Source of the DNA: Salinibacterium sp. TMP30
GTDB lineage: Bacteria > Actinomycetota > Actinomycetes > Actinomycetales > Microbacteriaceae
Assembly (NCBI RefSeq): GCF_038397785.1
Contig: NZ_CP151642.1
Location: 868,001 to 932,000 of the forward strand
Reading direction: 5' to 3'
DNA: 64,000 nt
Shown: positions 2 through 59,696 of the stretch, piece by piece
Layout: the number at the start of each line of letters is the position of its first letter
How positions within the stretch are numbered: the first letter of the stretch is position 1
Notes under the pieces: model-generated
The model's database searches: none
Seen by the model: the letters and a program-made list of their open reading frames with translations, nothing else
What the model was told of the DNA's origin: nothing
Made by a program: the position numbers and the translations under genes

Positions 2-1243
2 ATTGCGCGCATCCGCGGCAAGTATCTGCCGGTGCCCTACGCGTCGACAGGCATCTCGGGGTTGCAAGGTAGTTGGAGTTGGGAGCCCGAAGGCCTCACA
101 GTTTCTACCACAAACGCTAACTCGAAAGACCAAGAGTATGAGGTGTCGTACATCACGCCGGCACCATCGATCGAACAGCTCGAGGCAGCCCCCACGTCAC
201 TTCCCGAAGGATTCGAGAAGTACTTAGCGCTGCCCGAAACGTTGCCGGATGTCGTGGCCGAAACGGCGCAACAAGTGGCAGGCGCTGCACCTACTCGGTT
301 TGATCAGGCGCTTGCGCTGCAATCCTTTTTCAAGGACGGCGACTTTGCGTACTCCGAGAATGCGCCGCTGACCGAGAACTATGACGGTTCTGGTGCTGCG
401 GTGCTCGGTGAATTTCTGAGCGCCAAGAGCGGATACTGCGTGCACTTTGCTTCAGCGATGGCGGCGATGGCGCGCACACTCGACATCCCTGCGCGCGTCG
501 TGGTTGGTTTTACGCCAGGGCAAAAGAAGGCTGATGCGGAGACCGATGAGGTCAATTTCGTGGTCTCGACCGACAACCTGCATGCGTGGCCAGAACTGTA
601 TTTTCCGACGATCGGATGGATCCGCTTCGAGCCGACGGTGTCGGTCGGTTCCGAACCACGATTCGCGCAGAGTATTGCCGACGACCCCAGCACTCCTGAT
701 GTCGACGAGTCACAGCCGGAGCCCGCCGCGACTCCCGCACCGACATCCACGGCCACATCCGGAGCGCGCCCTGATTTGCCACTCGACGAGCAACCGACAA
801 CTCCCTCTACAGGTCCGCTAGCGGCATCCCCATTCTGGTGGTTGCTGCTCGCGCTACCGGTTCTGTTGTTTATTCCCGCGCTCGTGCGGGTGGTTCGTCG
901 GGGGCTGCGTCTCGCGGCAGTCTCACGAGGAGCCGTAGCTCCCGCGTGGCGTGAAGTGCGCGATACAGCAACAGACCTGGGCTTCGATCTCAGCGCCACC
1001 GCAACGCCACGGCAGCAGTATGAGCACTTAGCTGCCGGCTTGGGAGCATCGGGTGCTAAAACGCTCGCGGCGCTTCTGGCCAGTGTGGAGACCGCAGCAT
1101 TCAGTCCACGAGATACCCGCGTGCGCCCGGGCGCGGTGGCGGCCGCACTGACATCGCTGAGAGCATCCGCAACGTGGCGAGCTCGGGTGCGTGCTCGCTG
1201 GGCGCCACGCACGGCCTTCGGTCCGGTGGACCGGAGATCCTAG
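2..1243 (+). CDS. TgpA-like transglutaminase membrane protein, C-terminal part (5' end outside window)
   Basis: The reading frame is open to the window edge, so the N-terminus, which in this family holds several membrane segments, is missing; 413 residues are visible. A transglutaminase-like core carries the Cys of GYCVHFASAMA, the His of HAWPELYF and an Asp/Glu in the following strand (RFEPT). A Pro/Thr/Ser-rich linker follows, then one membrane segment (FWWLLLALPVLLFIPALV) and a basic cytoplasmic tail like DUF4129. This order is that of the actinobacterial DUF3488/transglutaminase proteins, which usually lie beside MoxR and DUF58 genes. Those would be upstream, outside the window. The extracytoplasmic substrate is unknown. 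The family assignment is firm, the role is not. Confidence 0.85.
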   Translation: MARIRGKYLPVPYASTGISGLQGSWSWEPEGLTVSTTNANSKDQEYEVSYITPAPSIEQLEAAPTSLPEGFEKYLALPETLPDVVAETAQQVAGAAPTRFDQALALQSFFKDGDFAYSENAPLTENYDGSGAAVLGEFLSAKSGYCVHFASAMAAMARTLDIPARVVVGFTPGQKKADAETDEVNFVVSTDNLHAWPELYFPTIGWIRFEPTVSVGSEPRFAQSIADDPSTPDVDESQPEPAATPAPTSTATSGARPDLPLDEQPTTPSTGPLAASPFWWLLLALPVLLFIPALVRVVRRGLRLAAVSRGAVAPAWREVRDTATDLGFDLSATATPRQQYEHLAAGLGASGAKTLAALLASVETAAFSPRDTRVRPGAVAAALTSLRASATWRARVRARWAPRTAFGPVDRRS

Positions 1244-50411: not shown

Positions 50412-50963
50412 GTGATTAGTGATGTTCTAGCCGAGGCTAGCGAAAAGATGAACAAGGCAGTGGAAGCTGCCAAAGATGACTTCGGCACAGTGCGCACCGG
50501 CCGTGCTAACCCCGCCCTTTTCCAGAAGGTGCTCGTGGACTATTACGGCACCCCCACGCCGCTGCAACAGCTTGCCTCGATGGTTAATCAAGAAGCACGC
50601 ACGCTGCTCATTACCCCGTTCGACAAGTCCGCACTCAAAGACATTGAGAAGGCGATTGCTGGGGCTCACCACCTGGGCGCCAGCGTTGGCAATGATGGCA
50701 ACGTCATTCGTGCCACGCTTCCCGAGCTAACTGAAGAACGGCGCAAGGAATTCGTCAAGATTGTCCGCGACAAAGCAGAGCAGGCCCGCGTTTCGCTGCG
50801 CAACGTGCGCCGCAAAGCTAAAGATGACCTGGATGCCCTCACTGAGGTTGGCGAAGACGAAGTGGCTCGTGCCGAGAAAGAGCTCGAAGCGAGTACCAAG
50901 GCTCACGTAGACGCAATTGACGAGGCCCTCAAGCGCAAAGAGACCGAGTTGCTCGAGGTCTAA
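50412..50963 (+). CDS. frr: Ribosome recycling factor
   Basis: This 183-residue L-shaped protein has [37 protein letters not shown] (in part) and VRKKAK-like [13 protein letters not shown]. The GTG after AGAGGAG is used instead of a start seven codons upstream. A TAAACT box lies just before it at 50392. The stop codon shares one base with the cdsA start. Confidence 0.96.
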
Positions 50964-51838
50964 TGGTTTCCGAATTCGAAGCTCAGGTTCGCGCAACCAA
51001 CGAGAAGATTAACGCCCGCACAGGGCGTCCTTTGGCGATGGCGCTCACTGTAGGGCTCGCGTTGGGACTCTCGTTGTTGTTCAGCTTGATCTTCGTCAAG
51101 GAGCTATACATGCTCTTTGCTGGCGTTCTCGTCGCATTCACTGCGTTCGAGTTGGCGAGCGCGCTCCGGTTCGCCGGGCTTAACATTCCGCGGCTCCCCA
51201 CGGTCATCGCCGCGGTCGCGGTAGTTCCTGCCTCGTTCTATTGGCTTGCTGAAGGTCAGTGGTACGTCACGCTCGCCGGCATCGCATTTGTCAGTGTGTG
51301 GAGGCTTGTCTGGCTTGTTCAGCCGAAACACCGTGGATCAGCGCGTGCGGTGCTCAGAGACCTCGGTGCAGGCGTCTTCGTCATTCTTTATGTGGCATTC
51401 TTGGCAAGCTTCACCGTGCTCCTGACCGCTCAAGAGGGCGGTGAATGGTGGACGTTGGCAATGCTGATCGTCGTAGTTGTGAGTGATATTGGGGCCTATG
51501 CAAGTGGGCTCTCCTTCGGAAAGCACCCGATGGCGCCAACGATTAGCCCTAACAAGACGTGGGAGGGTTTTGCCGGAGCTGCTGTCGCCTCTGTTACTGC
51601 GGGAATTCTTCTCGCACTCTTCATGATTGACCAACCCGTGTGGGTAGGAATCATCTTTGGCCTTGTCATTCTCGGCACCGCCACGATGGGAGATCTCGCG
51701 GAATCGTTGATCAAGCGTGACTTGGGGATCAAAGACATCAGCACGTGGCTTCCCGGGCATGGCGGGTTCCTTGACCGCGTTGATTCATCGTTGCTCTCGG
51801 CCGCTGCCGGCTACGCGCTGTTTCTTATCTTCGCGTAG
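50963..51838 (+). CDS. cdsA: Phosphatidate cytidylyltransferase
   Basis: This 291-residue membrane enzyme makes CDP-diacylglycerol. It has about eight membrane segments and the signature GDLAESLIKRDLGIKD followed by LPGHGGFLDRVDS near the C-terminus. SPNKTWEGFAGA is also typical. The ATG overlaps the frr stop by one base, so translation is coupled. A DivIVA-type gene follows after 14 bases. Confidence 0.95.
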   Translation: MVSEFEAQVRATNEKINARTGRPLAMALTVGLALGLSLLFSLIFVKELYMLFAGVLVAFTAFELASALRFAGLNIPRLPTVIAAVAVVPASFYWLAEGQWYVTLAGIAFVSVWRLVWLVQPKHRGSARAVLRDLGAGVFVILYVAFLASFTVLLTAQEGGEWWTLAMLIVVVVSDIGAYASGLSFGKHPMAPTISPNKTWEGFAGAAVASVTAGILLALFMIDQPVWVGIIFGLVILGTATMGDLAESLIKRDLGIKDISTWLPGHGGFLDRVDSSLLSAAAGYALFLIFA

Positions 51839-51852
51839 GGCACAATAGAACT

Positions 51853-52404
51853 GTGAGCACCACTTTCCCCCGAACCCGCAAGTCGAAGTTGGGTTACAAC
51901 GTTGACCAAGTTGAGGACTTCCTTGAGGAGGCGCGCAGTGCGTACACCTCTGACAGAGCCGGCACGGCTGTGGTCTCGTCGCGCAGCATCCGCAAGCTCG
52001 CGTTCGCCATGCAAAAAGGTGGCTACTCGCCTGTGCACGTCGACTCCGCTCTAGAGCGCCTCGAAGACGCATTCGCCGCTAGAGAGCGTGATCGTTCGAT
52101 CGATGATCTTGGTGAGTCGGCGTGGTACGCCAATGCCAGGTCTGAAGCCCAAGAGATCCTCAACAGGCTTGCCCGGCACACGGGCAAGAAGTTTTCTCGG
52201 GTCAGCTCGTTCACGACCGGCTACGCGACAAAAGATGTCGACGCGTTTGCAGAAGAACTGGCTAACTACTTTCAACATGGTGCCCCACTCACGATCGAGC
52301 GCGTGCGCACGGTCGCTTTTCGCAGCGTCAAGGGTGGTTATCGTGAGTCGCAGGTCGATTACCTTCTCGACTCTGTGATTGATGTGATGCTGGCTGTTCG
52401 CTAG
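51853..52404 (+). CDS. Protein with two DivIVA-type domains
   Basis: This 183-residue protein contains two related modules. The first (residues 6-30, FPRTRKSKLGYNVDQVEDFLEEAR) and the second (about 112-145, FSRVSSFTTGYATKDVDAFAEELANYF) both carry the GY-x-x-x-x-VD-x-F membrane-curvature motif of DivIVA. After each module a helical segment repeats (SIRKLAFAMQKGGYSPVHVDSALERL and VAFRSVKGGYRESQVDYLLDSVI, in part). It starts with GTG directly after cdsA. Wag31/DivIVA proteins mark poles and septa; a tandem, tail-less version may be an adaptor. Confidence 0.85.
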   Translation: MSTTFPRTRKSKLGYNVDQVEDFLEEARSAYTSDRAGTAVVSSRSIRKLAFAMQKGGYSPVHVDSALERLEDAFAARERDRSIDDLGESAWYANARSEAQEILNRLARHTGKKFSRVSSFTTGYATKDVDAFAEELANYFQHGAPLTIERVRTVAFRSVKGGYRESQVDYLLDSVIDVMLAVR

Positions 52405-52448: not shown

Positions 52449-53096
52449 GTGGTAAAAAATTCGCGAACAGCTATTCTCCGCGCTCAGGCAAAAAGCCAGG
52501 GCGCGGATCTCTCTGGGCGCCACACACGTTTGTCGTGGAGCCTCCCCATCTTCGCGTCCCTAGCGAGCTTGGGCTTCGTAGCCACCTTCATGATGGTTCC
52601 ACCCAACCCAGTCAGCGTGGTCTCTGCGGCCAGCTTGCCCGTGAATTCGATTGAGCGGGCCGAAGTGCAGTCCCTCACTGTCGCAGAGGGATTCGTCAAC
52701 GAGATCGCGCGCGACAAGTTCGCCGTCAAAGAGATCGTCGTTGAACCGGTGTTGCCTGCTGCACCCGTAGCGCCAGCTGCAGGAGTTCCTGATCCTGGCA
52801 CCGCGCAAGCGATCGCGAAATCAATGCTCGCGGCTCGCGGCCTTGGCGACGACCAGTACAACTGTTTGGTCAGCCTGTGGAATCGCGAATCAGGGTGGAA
52901 CGTGTACGCCATGAATTCGTCTAGTGGCGCCTACGGCATCCCGCAGGCCCTTCCTGGCAGCAAGATGGCGACCGCTGGCGCCGACTGGGCCACAAACCCC
53001 GCGACGCAGGTCGCGTGGGGACTCAGCTATATCGAGGGCCGCTACGCGACACCGTGTGGTGCCTGGTCTCACTCTGAGAACAACGGCTGGTACTAG
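52449..53096 (+). CDS. Secreted lytic-transglycosylase-like protein
   Basis: This 215-residue protein has an N-terminal membrane or signal segment (about residues 28-48), a Pro/Ala-rich linker and a C-terminal lysozyme-like domain. The domain contains DQYNCLVSLWNRESGWNVYAMNSSSGAYGIPQALPG (in part), with the catalytic Glu in NRESGW. It ends with WSHSENNGWY, as in actinobacterial surface transglycosylase-like proteins. A GTG start is used. It would act on peptidoglycan. Confidence 0.85.
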   Translation: MVKNSRTAILRAQAKSQGADLSGRHTRLSWSLPIFASLASLGFVATFMMVPPNPVSVVSAASLPVNSIERAEVQSLTVAEGFVNEIARDKFAVKEIVVEPVLPAAPVAPAAGVPDPGTAQAIAKSMLAARGLGDDQYNCLVSLWNRESGWNVYAMNSSSGAYGIPQALPGSKMATAGADWATNPATQVAWGLSYIEGRYATPCGAWSHSENNGWY

Positions 53097-55323: not shown

Positions 55324-57666
55324 TTACTGGCCAACGTCTTCGGCTTGGCTGAGAACTCCGCGCAGGTTCTCGAAGTAACCGGCGACGGTCTCTCGCTCCG
55401 CCTTGATCTTGGCGAGGCGTTCCTCGGCGTCGCTGACAAGCTCATTCGAACGCTTCTCGGCATCGTCGACGAGCGACTTGGCGCGCTGCTCAGCATCCGC
55501 AATTTCGTTGGCAGCACGCTCGGATGCATCCGCCAGGATGGACTTCGCTTCAGCCTGCGAGTTGTTGCTGAGCTCTTCGGCTTCGTGGCGCTTGGCATTT
55601 GCTTCTCGCACAGCCTCGCCCAGTTGCGCTTGAGCTTCCTCGAGGTAGTTCTGTGTCTGAGTTGAGGCTTCCTTGTGCTGTGCCAAGAACTCTTTCTCGG
55701 CGTCATCACGTCGTGCGGCAATCTCTTGTTCCAGCGCGATGCGGGCTGCGTCAGCTTCGCGTTCGATTGTGCTGCGAGTTTCTTCGAGCTGGTGCTGGAT
55801 GGCTGCCCGAGTTGACTCCACTTCATTAGCGAGTTCTGCGCGCTGGCGTGCGATGTCTCGCTCTAGGTCTGCGGTTTGTTTGTGCACGTCGTGGGCTAGG
55901 GCCGCGCGAGTCTCTGTGTCTTCGGTCTCGAGTGCGGTTCGCTTATTGTCGATCTCAGCATCGAGGTCTGCGTGGCGACGCGCCATCTCTTCTTCGAGCC
56001 CAGCGGTTGCCGACGCGATCTCTGCTTCGAGCTCGTTTCGGCGCGTTGTCATCTCGGTTTCGAAGTCTGCTCGTGCCGTTGCGGTTTCGAGTTCGAATGC
56101 GCTGCGCGCGGTAGTGATCTCGTCTTCGAGACCCGCACGAGTCGCCTCAACGTCTGCATCAAGGGCGGCTCGCGTTGAACTCACTTCCTTGGCGAGTGCC
56201 TTCGTTGTCGAAGTGACCTCGCGGTCTAGTGCCTTCTTTTGCGCCGCCAGATCAGCTGCAAGTTCGTTTCGGGTCAACTTGACGTGTGCTTCGAGGTCGG
56301 CCCGCGTAGTTGTCACCTCGTCTTCGAGCGCTGCCGTGGCGGTCGCAACCTCGTGTTCCAAGTTCGAACGAGTCGTTGTGACTTCTTGTTCAAGGGCCGC
56401 TTGCGCAACTTTGACTTCTTGTTCGAGCGCCGTCTTCGTCGTCGTAACTTCTTGTTCGAGGGCTGCTTTCGTGCTTGTTACCTCGTGTTCGAGAGCCGCC
56501 TGTGTAGTCGATACCTCGTCGTCGAGCGCTGCACGGGTGCTGCTGACGTCGCTGTCGAGTTGTGCCCGTGCTTCGCGTTCGCGGTGCTCCCACTGTTCGC
56601 GTGCTTCAGCGAGCTCGTTCTCCAGCGCTGCGCGTGTGCTGAGCACATCTTTTTCCAGTTCGCTGCGAACACGAGCTGCTTCAGACTCAACTGCAGTGCG
56701 GGTGGCTACAGTCTCTGCTTCGAGTGCGGCGTAAGCAGCATCGAGCTCTGCCTTTTGCTTGGCCTGCGCTGCTGCGCTTTCGTTGGCGAGCGTCGTGCGC
56801 GCCGCCTTCGTTTCATTGGCGAGCGTGGTGTGAGCTGCTTTAGTTTCGTTGGCGAGGGTTTCGCGAGCTGTTGTTGTTTCAGTTTCCAACTCGCCGCGAG
56901 CGGTGTCGATTTCGCGCGCGAGGTCGGTGCGGGCCTGTTCGACATCGCGTTCAAGGTCGTCACGTTGCTTCGTGTTTTCGGCTTCGAAGGTGGCGCGGCC
57001 AAGTTCGGCATCTCGGGCGAGCGCTTCGGCAGCCTCGCGGGCTTCAGCCACTTCGGTAGCGGTGCTGGCGCGAAGTTCGGTCATTGCGCGCTCAGTTTCG
57101 GCACGAAGGGCGGCAGCTTCGCGCTTAGCAGACGTGCGAGCATCCGCAGCTTCAGTAGCAACGGCGCCTCGAATGGTGGCGGCTTCGCGTGCAGCATCTG
57201 CAGTGAGTTGCGCTGCTTCGTCGCGAGCGCGGGCAATGAGAGCGTCCGCTTCGGCCCGCGACGCTTTGGCTAGCGAATCTGCTTCGCGATTGGCATCCGC
57301 GAGAATTCGCTCTGACTCGCCAGTTGTTTCGTTACGAAGGTTCGTGGTTTCTGCCTGAACGGCCTTGCGCATTTTTTCGGCGTCGATATCAGCTTGGCTG
57401 ATCAACTGCGTTGAGTGCTCCTCGGCAACGCGGAGCATGCTCTCGAGTTTGGAGCCGAGTCCGCTATATGTGGGGCTGCCCGACTCGTCGAGTTCTGCTT
57501 GCAGATCTTCATTGACGGCAAGCAGCCGCTTGACCTCTTTTGTGGAGGCCGTTCGGTCGGCTTTGGCGGCAACAAGTTCGCGACGAAGTTCGCCAATGAG
57601 CTTGTCGACATCGTCCTTCTTATAGCCGCGCATTTCGGTGCCGAAATCAGTGTCGTTGGCGGCCAA
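55324..57666 (-). CDS. Giant hendecad coiled-coil protein with DivIVA-like N-terminus
   Basis: This protein has 780 residues. Residues 8-35 (FGTEMRGYKKDDVDKLIGELRREL) resemble the DivIVA membrane-binding head. Residues 91-761 can be written as 61 consecutive 11-residue units with no insertion or deletion. The first 13 have the form xAxxEAxxLxA. Units 14-52 (residues 234-662) have a (T/A)R-x-x-L-E-x-E-(V/I)-x-x consensus. The last nine are of ADAExRA type. The sequence has almost no aromatic residues, no Cys and only a few Pro, all near residue 65. The TTG start has GAGGAG five bases upstream; an ATG at residue 12 would cut the head. I infer a rod about 100 nm long, perhaps a cytoskeletal or polar scaffold like Streptomyces Scy or FilP; this is not proven. 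Confidence 0.85.
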   Translation of the reverse strand: MAANDTDFGTEMRGYKKDDVDKLIGELRRELVAAKADRTASTKEVKRLLAVNEDLQAELDESGSPTYSGLGSKLESMLRVAEEHSTQLISQADIDAEKMRKAVQAETTNLRNETTGESERILADANREADSLAKASRAEADALIARARDEAAQLTADAAREAATIRGAVATEAADARTSAKREAAALRAETERAMTELRASTATEVAEAREAAEALARDAELGRATFEAENTKQRDDLERDVEQARTDLAREIDTARGELETETTTARETLANETKAAHTTLANETKAARTTLANESAAAQAKQKAELDAAYAALEAETVATRTAVESEAARVRSELEKDVLSTRAALENELAEAREQWEHREREARAQLDSDVSSTRAALDDEVSTTQAALEHEVTSTKAALEQEVTTTKTALEQEVKVAQAALEQEVTTTRSNLEHEVATATAALEDEVTTTRADLEAHVKLTRNELAADLAAQKKALDREVTSTTKALAKEVSSTRAALDADVEATRAGLEDEITTARSAFELETATARADFETEMTTRRNELEAEIASATAGLEEEMARRHADLDAEIDNKRTALETEDTETRAALAHDVHKQTADLERDIARQRAELANEVESTRAAIQHQLEETRSTIEREADAARIALEQEIAARRDDAEKEFLAQHKEASTQTQNYLEEAQAQLGEAVREANAKRHEAEELSNNSQAEAKSILADASERAANEIADAEQRAKSLVDDAEKRSNELVSDAEERLAKIKAERETVAGYFENLRGVLSQAEDVGQ
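55681..56967 (-). repeat. 33-base periodic region coding for 39 similar hendecads
   Basis: The motif ACTTCTTGTTCAAG or ACTTCTTGTTCGAG (plus-strand reading) recurs at 56381, 56414 and 56447, exactly 33 bases apart. Diverged copies continue on both sides. The DNA period matches the 11-residue protein period, so the array probably grew by tandem duplication. Confidence 0.85.
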
Positions 57667-57687
57667 GACGTCTCCTCGAAGTCAGCG

Positions 57688-57700: not shown

Positions 57701-57947
57701 GAGTTTAGTGGTGCTGAGCCGCTTACTGTGATTCGGGCCTCGCTGCGTTTAGTGCACTCAACGTTCTCCCAGCCAGTTCCCAGATGACGAACTAGGTGCC
57801 CACACACCCATCGGCTAGTCTGGAACGTCTTTGTTGTTGCCTACCCGCCTAGATCGGGCCCTCAACCTGCAGACCGAACTGAGGTTCCGCCACGGTGGCG
57901 AAGGGTTTCGTGGCGCAAGTCACAGGGGCAGCACGAAAGGAGAGATA

Positions 57948-59696
57948 GTGAGATTCGTTCTCGCCATAGTTAGTTTTATGCTCGCGGCCGTAATGATTGG
58001 CTTCGGCATCGCGCAGCAAACCATTCTTGCGACGCCTGATGAGGTCAGTGTGTCGGCTGAAACTGACGGCACCGCACCCCTCACTGTGGTTGATGGGGCT
58101 GCGTTCAACGCATATTCGGGCAACCAGACAATCAGTGTGGCGGGCCCAGGGCGCATCGTTGCCGCCTATGGCCGCACGTCAGACGTACTGGCCTGGGTCG
58201 GTGATGCCAGCTACAACATGGTTACCGTCGATCCCGAGTCGGGTGAGCTGGTGGCTGAGGCGATTCGCGGCAGTGAACAAGAAGTGCCGGACCCCTATGA
58301 TTCTGATCTGTGGCTTGAGAACTACACGGCTGACCTTGAGCTCGCACTAACCGTCAAGATACCTAGCGACGTCTCATTCATTCTGGCTGCTGACGGCGTA
58401 GAACCAGCCCCCAACACCGTTTCGCTCTCGTGGCCGCTCGACAACAGCACGCCGTGGGCCGCACCGCTGATTTTAGGAGGCGCTGCCGTGCTTCTCCTTG
58501 GGCTCATCTTCCTGATGTGGGCCGTGCACCACATGCGCCGCGCCGGAGGACCTCGTCGGAAGCAACAAAAAATGCCCAAGGTGCCCAAAAAGCCTCGCTA
58601 CAAGCCGTCGAAACGATTAGTACGCAGCAGTGAGAGCAGCGCCGTCACGACGACTAAGCGCATCGCCGTTCCTGCGGTGCTGCTGAGCGCATTGATCTTG
58701 AGTGGATGCACGGTCACGTCGTCTCCTAGCGCAACTGAAGAGGTGAGCGCCCCGACCCCATCGCCGACCTCTACCTCACCAGGCAGCGAAACTCTGCCGC
58801 CCGCGGCATCCGTGCGCCAGGTGGAGAAGATTGTTGCTCGAGTGAGTGCGGTCTCGCTTGAGGCGGACGAGTCCCGCGACGCTGACCTCATCACGACACG
58901 ATTTACCGATGCGGCGCTTGAGTATCGTCTCGCCAACTACAAGATGCGCACGGCAGACAGCTCCATTGCGTCGCCGATTGCCATTCCCGACGGTCCTGTG
59001 CAGTTGACGCTGCCACAGCAAACCGACTCGTGGCCGCGCACCGTGTTCACGATCATCCTCGACGAGACTGATACCACCGTTGCGCCCATCGCACTCTTCC
59101 TTGAGCAAGCGTCGCCTCGCGAGAACTACAAAGTCAGCTACTCGATGAACCTAGAACCCTCAGTGGTGTTCCCGGATGTAGTCGCCGCCAGCGTCGGCAC
59201 ATCGCGCTTGGCTCCAGATAGTGGTTTGCTTCGTTCATCACCAACCGAAGTGGCGCTCGACTATGCCGAAATTCTCGAACAGGATGTTGACAGCGACTCC
59301 TACCTCGACTTCGAGGTTGACGGCGACAGTCTGCGAGTGAACGTCGGCCTCGCCGTGAAAAACAAAGAGAAGGCTGAGCTTTCGAGCACAGCAACCCTCA
59401 CCTACGGCCACGCACTTGGCTCGGCCGAGCCGATCGCGATGGCGACCGTCGATGCGGGAGCGATTGTTGCAGTGCACCTCTATGAGACAAAAGTTGCGAA
59501 ACCGAAGGAAGAAGGCTCGGCGGTGACCTTTAGCGGTCAGACGAAGGCACTTTCAGGGATCTCTATCACAGAAACTGGCATCAAATCTACCTACGGGGAT
59601 CAGCTACTCTTTTATGTTCCGGCAGCAGGTAGTGCCGAAAAAATCGTCCTGCTCGGATACACCCAAGGACTTGTTGCAGCATCGGAGTTGAATTGA
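57948..59696 (+). CDS. Three-helix membrane protein with an internal lipobox and two extracytoplasmic domains
   Basis: This 582-residue protein has a first membrane segment (residues 4-24), a beta-rich external domain (30-165), a second membrane segment (171-192), a very basic cytoplasmic linker (198-238) and a third hydrophobic segment. The third segment ends in the lipobox-like LILSGC at residue 254. A Thr/Ser/Pro linker and a large acidic external domain (270-582) follow. The tail looks like a complete lipoprotein fused behind a membrane protein. The GTG after AAAGGAGAG is used. It overlaps the next gene by four bases. I recognise no family; a surface role is inferred. Confidence 0.75.
   Translation: MRFVLAIVSFMLAAVMIGFGIAQQTILATPDEVSVSAETDGTAPLTVVDGAAFNAYSGNQTISVAGPGRIVAAYGRTSDVLAWVGDASYNMVTVDPESGELVAEAIRGSEQEVPDPYDSDLWLENYTADLELALTVKIPSDVSFILAADGVEPAPNTVSLSWPLDNSTPWAAPLILGGAAVLLLGLIFLMWAVHHMRRAGGPRRKQQKMPKVPKKPRYKPSKRLVRSSESSAVTTTKRIAVPAVLLSALILSGCTVTSSPSATEEVSAPTPSPTSTSPGSETLPPAASVRQVEKIVARVSAVSLEADESRDADLITTRFTDAALEYRLANYKMRTADSSIASPIAIPDGPVQLTLPQQTDSWPRTVFTIILDETDTTVAPIALFLEQASPRENYKVSYSMNLEPSVVFPDVVAASVGTSRLAPDSGLLRSSPTEVALDYAEILEQDVDSDSYLDFEVDGDSLRVNVGLAVKNKEKAELSSTATLTYGHALGSAEPIAMATVDAGAIVAVHLYETKVAKPKEEGSAVTFSGQTKALSGISITETGIKSTYGDQLLFYVPAAGSAEKIVLLGYTQGLVAASELN

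Follow-up and report, generated by a model that had tools for sequence, protein, structure and literature searches.

A 64,000-nucleotide stretch of the genome of Salinibacterium sp. TMP30, a single contig of 2.69 Mb (NZ_CP151642.1, positions 868,001 to 932,000; hereafter the window), encodes a 780-residue protein built largely of eleven-residue repeats. The locus raises the question of what kind of protein this is, and of how so regular a rod changes in length among its relatives. The reading frame, which a preliminary description of the DNA had placed here, is real and lies on the minus strand (Table 1). Its TTG start and the GAGGAG upstream of it are common to all 11 close relatives. A search for relatives returned seven loci, six of them at 82–86% identity (five Salinibacterium records and the marine actinobacterium PHSC20C1) and the seventh a short match at 55% identity.

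Table 1. Coordinates, in window positions, of the rod gene, its parts and its neighbors
Feature	Position	Strand	Basis
FilP-family rod protein, 780 aa, TTG start	55324..57666	(-)	ORF translation
GAGGAG, ribosome-site-like, upstream of TTG	57672..57677	(-)	sequence seen; putative role
DivIVA-like domain with RGYKKDDVD and first (heptad) coil, residues 8-60	57487..57645	(-)	profile matches GpsB/DivIVA/Wag31 structures
Second FilP motif SPTYSGLGSKLESMLRVAEE, residues 64-83	57418..57477	(-)	matches FilP motif
Conserved inner block, N-terminal rod end, residues 159-225	56992..57192	(-)	column identity
Expandable hendecad zone, residues 216-635	55762..57021	(-)	gaps placed in close pairs
Conserved inner block, C-terminal rod end, EQEIAARRDDAEKEF..., residues 632-687	55606..55773	(-)	column identity
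Constant tail ERETVAGYFENLRGVL, heptad-like at end, residues 700-779	55330..55569	(-)	FilP tail match
Tandem-DivIVA (PolyDIV) neighbor, separate from rod	51853..52404	(+)	TIGR03543 192.1 bits, cut-off 154.2
Lipoprotein-like/membrane protein, 621 aa, divergent neighbor	57831..59696	(+)	NCBIfam lipo_SCO2278 31.6 bits, cut-off 210
Presumed cdsA-like gene	50963..51838		named from position and sequence

Judged from its sequence, the protein belongs to the FilP family and is not a new scaffold that resembles FilP only in role. The family has been defined, in passages of PMC2680258, by two motifs that mark the borders of the first two coils, and the window protein has both: RGYKKDDVD and SPTYSGLGSKLESMLRVAEE align with FilP and are kept in an alignment of 57 heads. 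The head profile picks up the FilP proteins of five Streptomyces-like genomes at 2e-23 to 2e-25, and a tail profile built without Streptomyces loci matches FilP tails with domain E-values of about 1e-12 among the matches listed. Single comparisons of the window protein with FilP gave 3e-12 for the head and 3e-5 for part of the tail. What we take to be Scy and FilP in the five genomes, named by arrangement, size and sequence, form a neighboring pair of 1278–1389 and 317–322 residues. The window protein thus has both N-terminal motifs, the DivIVA-like head, a coiled-coil rod and a matching tail in common with FilP, and differs from it in its gene neighborhood, in a purely hendecad rod middle and in a rod of 693 residues between anchors (from the GLG motif to the tyrosine of VAGYF) as opposed to 202 in FilP of the five genomes. 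The preliminary description had proposed a role comparable to that of Scy/FilP with another repeat: kinship with both is borne out by sequence and the repeat does differ from that of Scy, but the protein belongs to the FilP family itself.

The head, described beforehand as DivIVA-like, does not reach the Pfam DivIVA threshold by itself (PF05103, 17.2 bits; curated 28 bits), but its affinity is clear with the profile of 57 heads, which matches GpsB (4ug3, 7.2e-6), DivIVA (2wuj, 1e-4) and Wag31 (6lfa, 0.0017) in the PDB; these three kinds account for all of the first 10 rows, and later rows are general coiled coils. An AlphaFold2 model of the head (95 aa; pLDDT 85.9, pTM 0.44) has two helices, one spanning residues 12–58 of this piece. 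Searching the PDB with the whole protein gave no match up to 0.01, and in Pfam and NCBIfam scans the sole matches were to coils and DivIVA, all of them sub-threshold, with no known enzymatic domain, signal or membrane segment. DivIVA/Wag31 and GpsB have this head domain in common with the rod protein and lack its long hendecad rod. We rejected an identity with DivIVA/Wag31 since the protein scores below the family cut-offs, including that of NCBIfam NF050102 for Wag31 (23.9 bits; curated 260), and the genome holds a separate DivIVA-family protein, a 253-aa frame scoring 49.5 bits. PolyDIV (PMC9858780; TIGR03543), encoded in the rod's neighborhood, is of the same DivIVA-like superfamily and, unlike the window protein, carries several DivIVA-like domains in one short chain with no rod; the window protein has a single such head, and further weak profile matches fall in the coil.

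The eleven-residue periodicity of the rod lies far above chance, in agreement with the preliminary description. Strong hydrophobics (VILMFYW) in residues 91–761 peak at 3.665 residues with a power of 63.8, where none of 100 shuffles exceeded 10.7; at 11/3 the power is 60.7, at 7/2 it is 0.1 and at 51/14 it is 0.3. The proposed count of 61 unbroken hendecads holds in that no indel interrupts residues 91–761, but the C-terminal stretch weakens and about 50 units are solid. Hendecad power in 66-residue windows is at least 4.4 from residues 54–119 through 615–680 and falls to 2.5–3.3 at 648–746, and in the last window (714–779) heptads fit better (P7 8.1, P11 1.7). The hydrophobic stripe is accordingly solid to about residue 680, the last ~100 residues turn heptad-like, and the core columns drift along the rod from 1/5/8 to 0/4/8 to about 0/4/7. 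The pattern R-x-x-L-E-x-E, earlier assigned to 39 units, is exact in only 7 of 61, although 28 units carry at least three of the four residues and 38 at least two; it is the family consensus, with R at 0.72, L at 0.71 and the two E at 0.42 and 0.66 in the central rods of 88 relatives. Within units 14–52, strong hydrophobics occupy column 4 at 0.95, column 8 at 0.74 and every other column at 0.08 or less. Alanine stands at column 0 at 0.38 and is equally frequent at columns 2 and 3; in 88 phase-0 relatives it reaches 0.55 at the corresponding column of the central rod. Hendecad dimers are described in PMC9858780, in the passages available, as needing small core residues such as alanine, which FilP and Scy have. 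The same period runs through the family: in 166 of 175 homologue rods the peak is no more than half a resolution element away from 3/11, the central part of 54 long rods has a period of 3.6666 (sd 0.0016), and prolines number 5 in 93,842 rod residues, with none in 185 of 189 rods.

Two other classes of helical repeat protein have to be weighed against this profile. A very long hendecad rod behind a DivIVA-like head is what Scy, of the same superfamily, also presents, and the window gene might be its orthologue. Scy-type rods, however, peak at 3.639–3.642 with a power of 37–48 at 51/14 and 0.4–1.9 at 11/3, the 51-residue repeat of Scy, whereas the window rod and its relatives peak at 11/3. Scy starts right before RGYD, according to passages of PMC9858780; at the predicted start of the window protein 12 residues precede RGY, and the chain ends in a FilP tail. 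Given the differing repeat period and start position, we rejected an orthologue of Scy, which we consider scarcely credible. Eleven-residue repeats are also typical of LEA group 3 proteins and, as helical repeats, occur in apolipoproteins A1/A4/E, so the rod could be an amphipathic helix that binds membranes or protects against desiccation and forms no coiled coil. The Pfam Apolipoprotein family (PF01442) does score 70.1 bits against the protein, below its curated 90; here, too, hydrophobics are confined to the narrow core stripe of columns 4 and 8 in units 14–52, the head is of the DivIVA-like dimer type, and phase is kept across up to 1012 residues. A score below cut-off and a different stripe led us to reject this identity; the narrow stripe and phase-true length changes disfavor an LEA-like helix, which from these sequence features appears very improbable. 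The Apolipoprotein match itself (residues 400–569) has an E-value of 2.6e-19 though sub-cut-off, and could mislead automatic annotation of such rods.

How the rod changes in length was followed in 189 homologues from 91 genera and 16 families, 152 rows and 62 genera of them from the window's family. They come from 160 stretches taken out of longer match lists that are themselves samples, each search having scored at most 10, 25 or 26 candidates per genome at first look; 7 of 196 head-positive frames were left out (five Scy-type, one on a cut contig, L018, and one PolyDIV false match, the second frame of L051), as were loci L030–L037 and L078–L142 (genome repeats, short, cut or unrelated). As the preliminary description had anticipated, unit number varies while the head stays constant: rods span 202 to 1012 residues in 80 distinct lengths. 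These lengths fall overwhelmingly into three classes, 73 of 80 being 0, 4 or 7 mod 11 (0 in 42, 7 in 23 and 4 in 8), with seven outside (3 in 3, 6 in 2, 5 in 1 and 8 in 1). The mod-11 entropy has a z of −37, and across moduli 2 to 23 the signal is confined to 11 and its multiple 22; C-terminal extensions, used as a control, had no mod-11 pattern (z 1.1).

Because the clades are related, these counts are not 189 independent cases, and pairs and a tree are the fair tests. Of 63 nearest disjoint pairs sharing at least 70% identity, 29 have rods of unequal length, the difference being divisible by 11 in 28 and equal to 40 in one; when all 94 pairs are counted, 43 of 50 length differences are multiples of 11. 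A tree of heads and tails (134 columns, with 78 of 185 inner forks open) requires at least 103 length changes and 14 phase changes, where random lengths in the same classes require 78–87 phase changes (20 draws). More than one length occurs in 29 genera and a single phase in 24 of them; three of the other five involve a 256-residue second copy. In the relatives examined, rod length thus mostly shifts by whole eleven-residue steps, as if the geometry were protected. Tempo differs between clades: length is 693 in 11 species (L001–L011) at 80–86% identity, and pairs elsewhere at 86–99% head–tail identity differ by 11 to 176 residues.

Where changes could be placed, they stay in the middle of the rod. 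Gaps placed in close pairs are multiples of 11 in 41 of 49 cases at rod identity above 0.55 and in 37 of 40 cases in the 27 pairs at 0.6 or more; total lengths are certain, while placement inside repeats is uncertain. All 40 of these gaps keep at least 145 residues from the head anchor and at least 129 from the tail anchor. Conservation follows the same division, as column identity over 88 relatives is 0.59–0.67 in the N-terminal inner block as opposed to about 0.3 mid-rod, and reaches 0.49–0.66 in the C-terminal block. Counted from the head, phase-0 and phase-7 rods have the same register (0.89 and 0.90 strong hydrophobics at +2), and by eye the distance from the C-terminal block to the tail is constant in most rods of both phases examined, which together place the four-residue difference just upstream of that block.

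Steps of eleven could come from repeat DNA alone, through 33-bp slippage or unequal exchange that keeps the coil in phase without selection. The window gene contains tandem repeats of period 33; inserted blocks are closer in DNA to the block beside them (mean 0.66) than to other in-phase blocks (0.45), the adjacent one being the best match in 8 of 17; and one insertion is a 33-bp tandem copy, identical once its boundary is slid (L145/L146). The units are nevertheless old and diverged, with adjacent-unit DNA identity averaging 0.48 in the window gene, so slippage should be weak. Moreover, 8 of the 14 phase shifts are of 4 or 7 mod 11, sizes that unit slippage does not make (hand count on the tree, P 0.0024; 7 of 13 without L259, which sits on a very long branch and is unsure in phase), and the head coil changes mostly by 7, the distance between its motifs being 57 in 158 of 189 homologues, 64 in 10, 50 in 6, and 52, 53, 56 or 58 in 15. 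We therefore regard repeat DNA as sole cause as unlikely, if a serious contender. The pattern of steps suggests that selection on coil phase enforces them beyond what repeat DNA alone would yield, and the two may both act.

Selection might instead bear on length itself, the rod then being a spacer or ruler tuned to define a cell dimension. Constant ends around a variable middle would suit such a part, as would the fixed length in the 11 species above. Close relatives in other clades, however, have rods 33 to 176 residues apart in length, a spread equally compatible with weak selection on length, and we hold a tuned ruler to be rather improbable. A further proposal, unlikely in our estimate though worth stating, is that the rod is an evolvable length standard, in which whole hendecads between fixed ends set a spacing (mesh size, pole-cap depth or striation period) while phase is selected. 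If true, 202 to 1012 residues would correspond to about 30 to 150 nm, and unit number would predict a measurable cell dimension.

We consider it probable that the protein is a dimeric, intermediate-filament-like cytoskeletal rod of the FilP family, lengthened by whole-hendecad duplication between fixed ends. In this proposed mechanism the DivIVA-like head would dimerize and, like FilP in Streptomyces, probably contact DivIVA/Wag31 at growth zones. Behind it an uninterrupted hendecad coiled coil, rich in alanine, would form a nearly straight rod, closed by the constant, heptad-ending tail; an α-helical coil rises 0.15 nm per residue, so 693 residues would span about 100 nm. By analogy with FilP, such rods may be parallel dimers, located at pole or septum, that join into filaments or a mesh and stiffen poles or envelope. 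Length would evolve by gain and loss of whole hendecads within the middle zone, since any other indel would rotate the hydrophobic stripe. In the accounts available from PMC2680258, FilP, Janibacter JNB03975 and M. bovis Mb1709 assemble spontaneously into filaments in vitro, those of the Janibacter member being 40 nm, and passages of PMC6599971 describe striated FilP filaments with a 54–60 nm repeat near hyphal tips.

Passages of PMC9858780 already describe FilP and Scy with their hendecads, the head that they have in common, and lengths from <200 to >1000 residues. In the portions of the open literature searched we found no earlier report of whole-hendecad length steps, and these steps across homologues are new here. 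FilP and Scy are among the better known bacterial intermediate-filament-like proteins. Members of the present family form a natural series that differs in rod length under one constant head and tail, against which striation, mesh size and cell shape can be set directly. Indels also record coil type cleanly over evolution, with steps mostly of 7 in the head coil and 11 in the rod, and step sizes thereby offer a sequence-only way of mapping coil zones.

FilP is described in passages of PMC4255298 as widespread in actinobacteria and absent from coccal ones. A head match at 1e-8 was found in at least 160 of 199 sampled genomes of the window's family (71 of 85 genera) and at least 108 of 197 of the class, with at most 25 (family) or 26 (class) candidates scored per genome at first look, so that absences in these searches are not proof. 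Of 14 family genomes examined that gave no head match, 13 have the neighboring hydrolase. At all 13 of these intact-looking loci, which belong to other genera (L263–L275), tblastn and both profiles find no rod; the hydrolase, lipoprotein-like and thioredoxin/TPR genes are kept there, and the AI-2E gene is missing in two. The rod gene therefore has no essential role at those loci, which argues against an essential scaffold. In one of them (L266) a 654-aa membrane-type ORF stands in the rod's place.

The surroundings of the gene are well kept within the family. Tandem-DivIVA and cdsA-like genes do lie nearby, as the preliminary description had it. The lipoprotein-like gene is the most constant neighbor, present at 23 of 23 family loci excluding second copies, and PolyDIV is present at 21 of the 23, one of the two without it being a cut contig. 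Elsewhere in the order, 11 of 12 loci from other families keep at least one tested neighbor; the five Streptomyces-type loci keep none. Second copies without the neighborhood make up 5 of 28 family loci (L046, L052, L054, L061 and L064); their FilP-like rod, unlike that of the main copy, is exactly 256 residues in 6 of 6 rows. In the window, the lipoprotein-like protein seems to have a membrane part followed, at about residue 285, by an apparent second lipoprotein-type signal (LSALILSGC), and an ORF at 52449–53096 (+) with an aggregation-promoting-factor C-terminal domain (NF052397, 121.4 bits against 40) adjoins PolyDIV in the same cluster.
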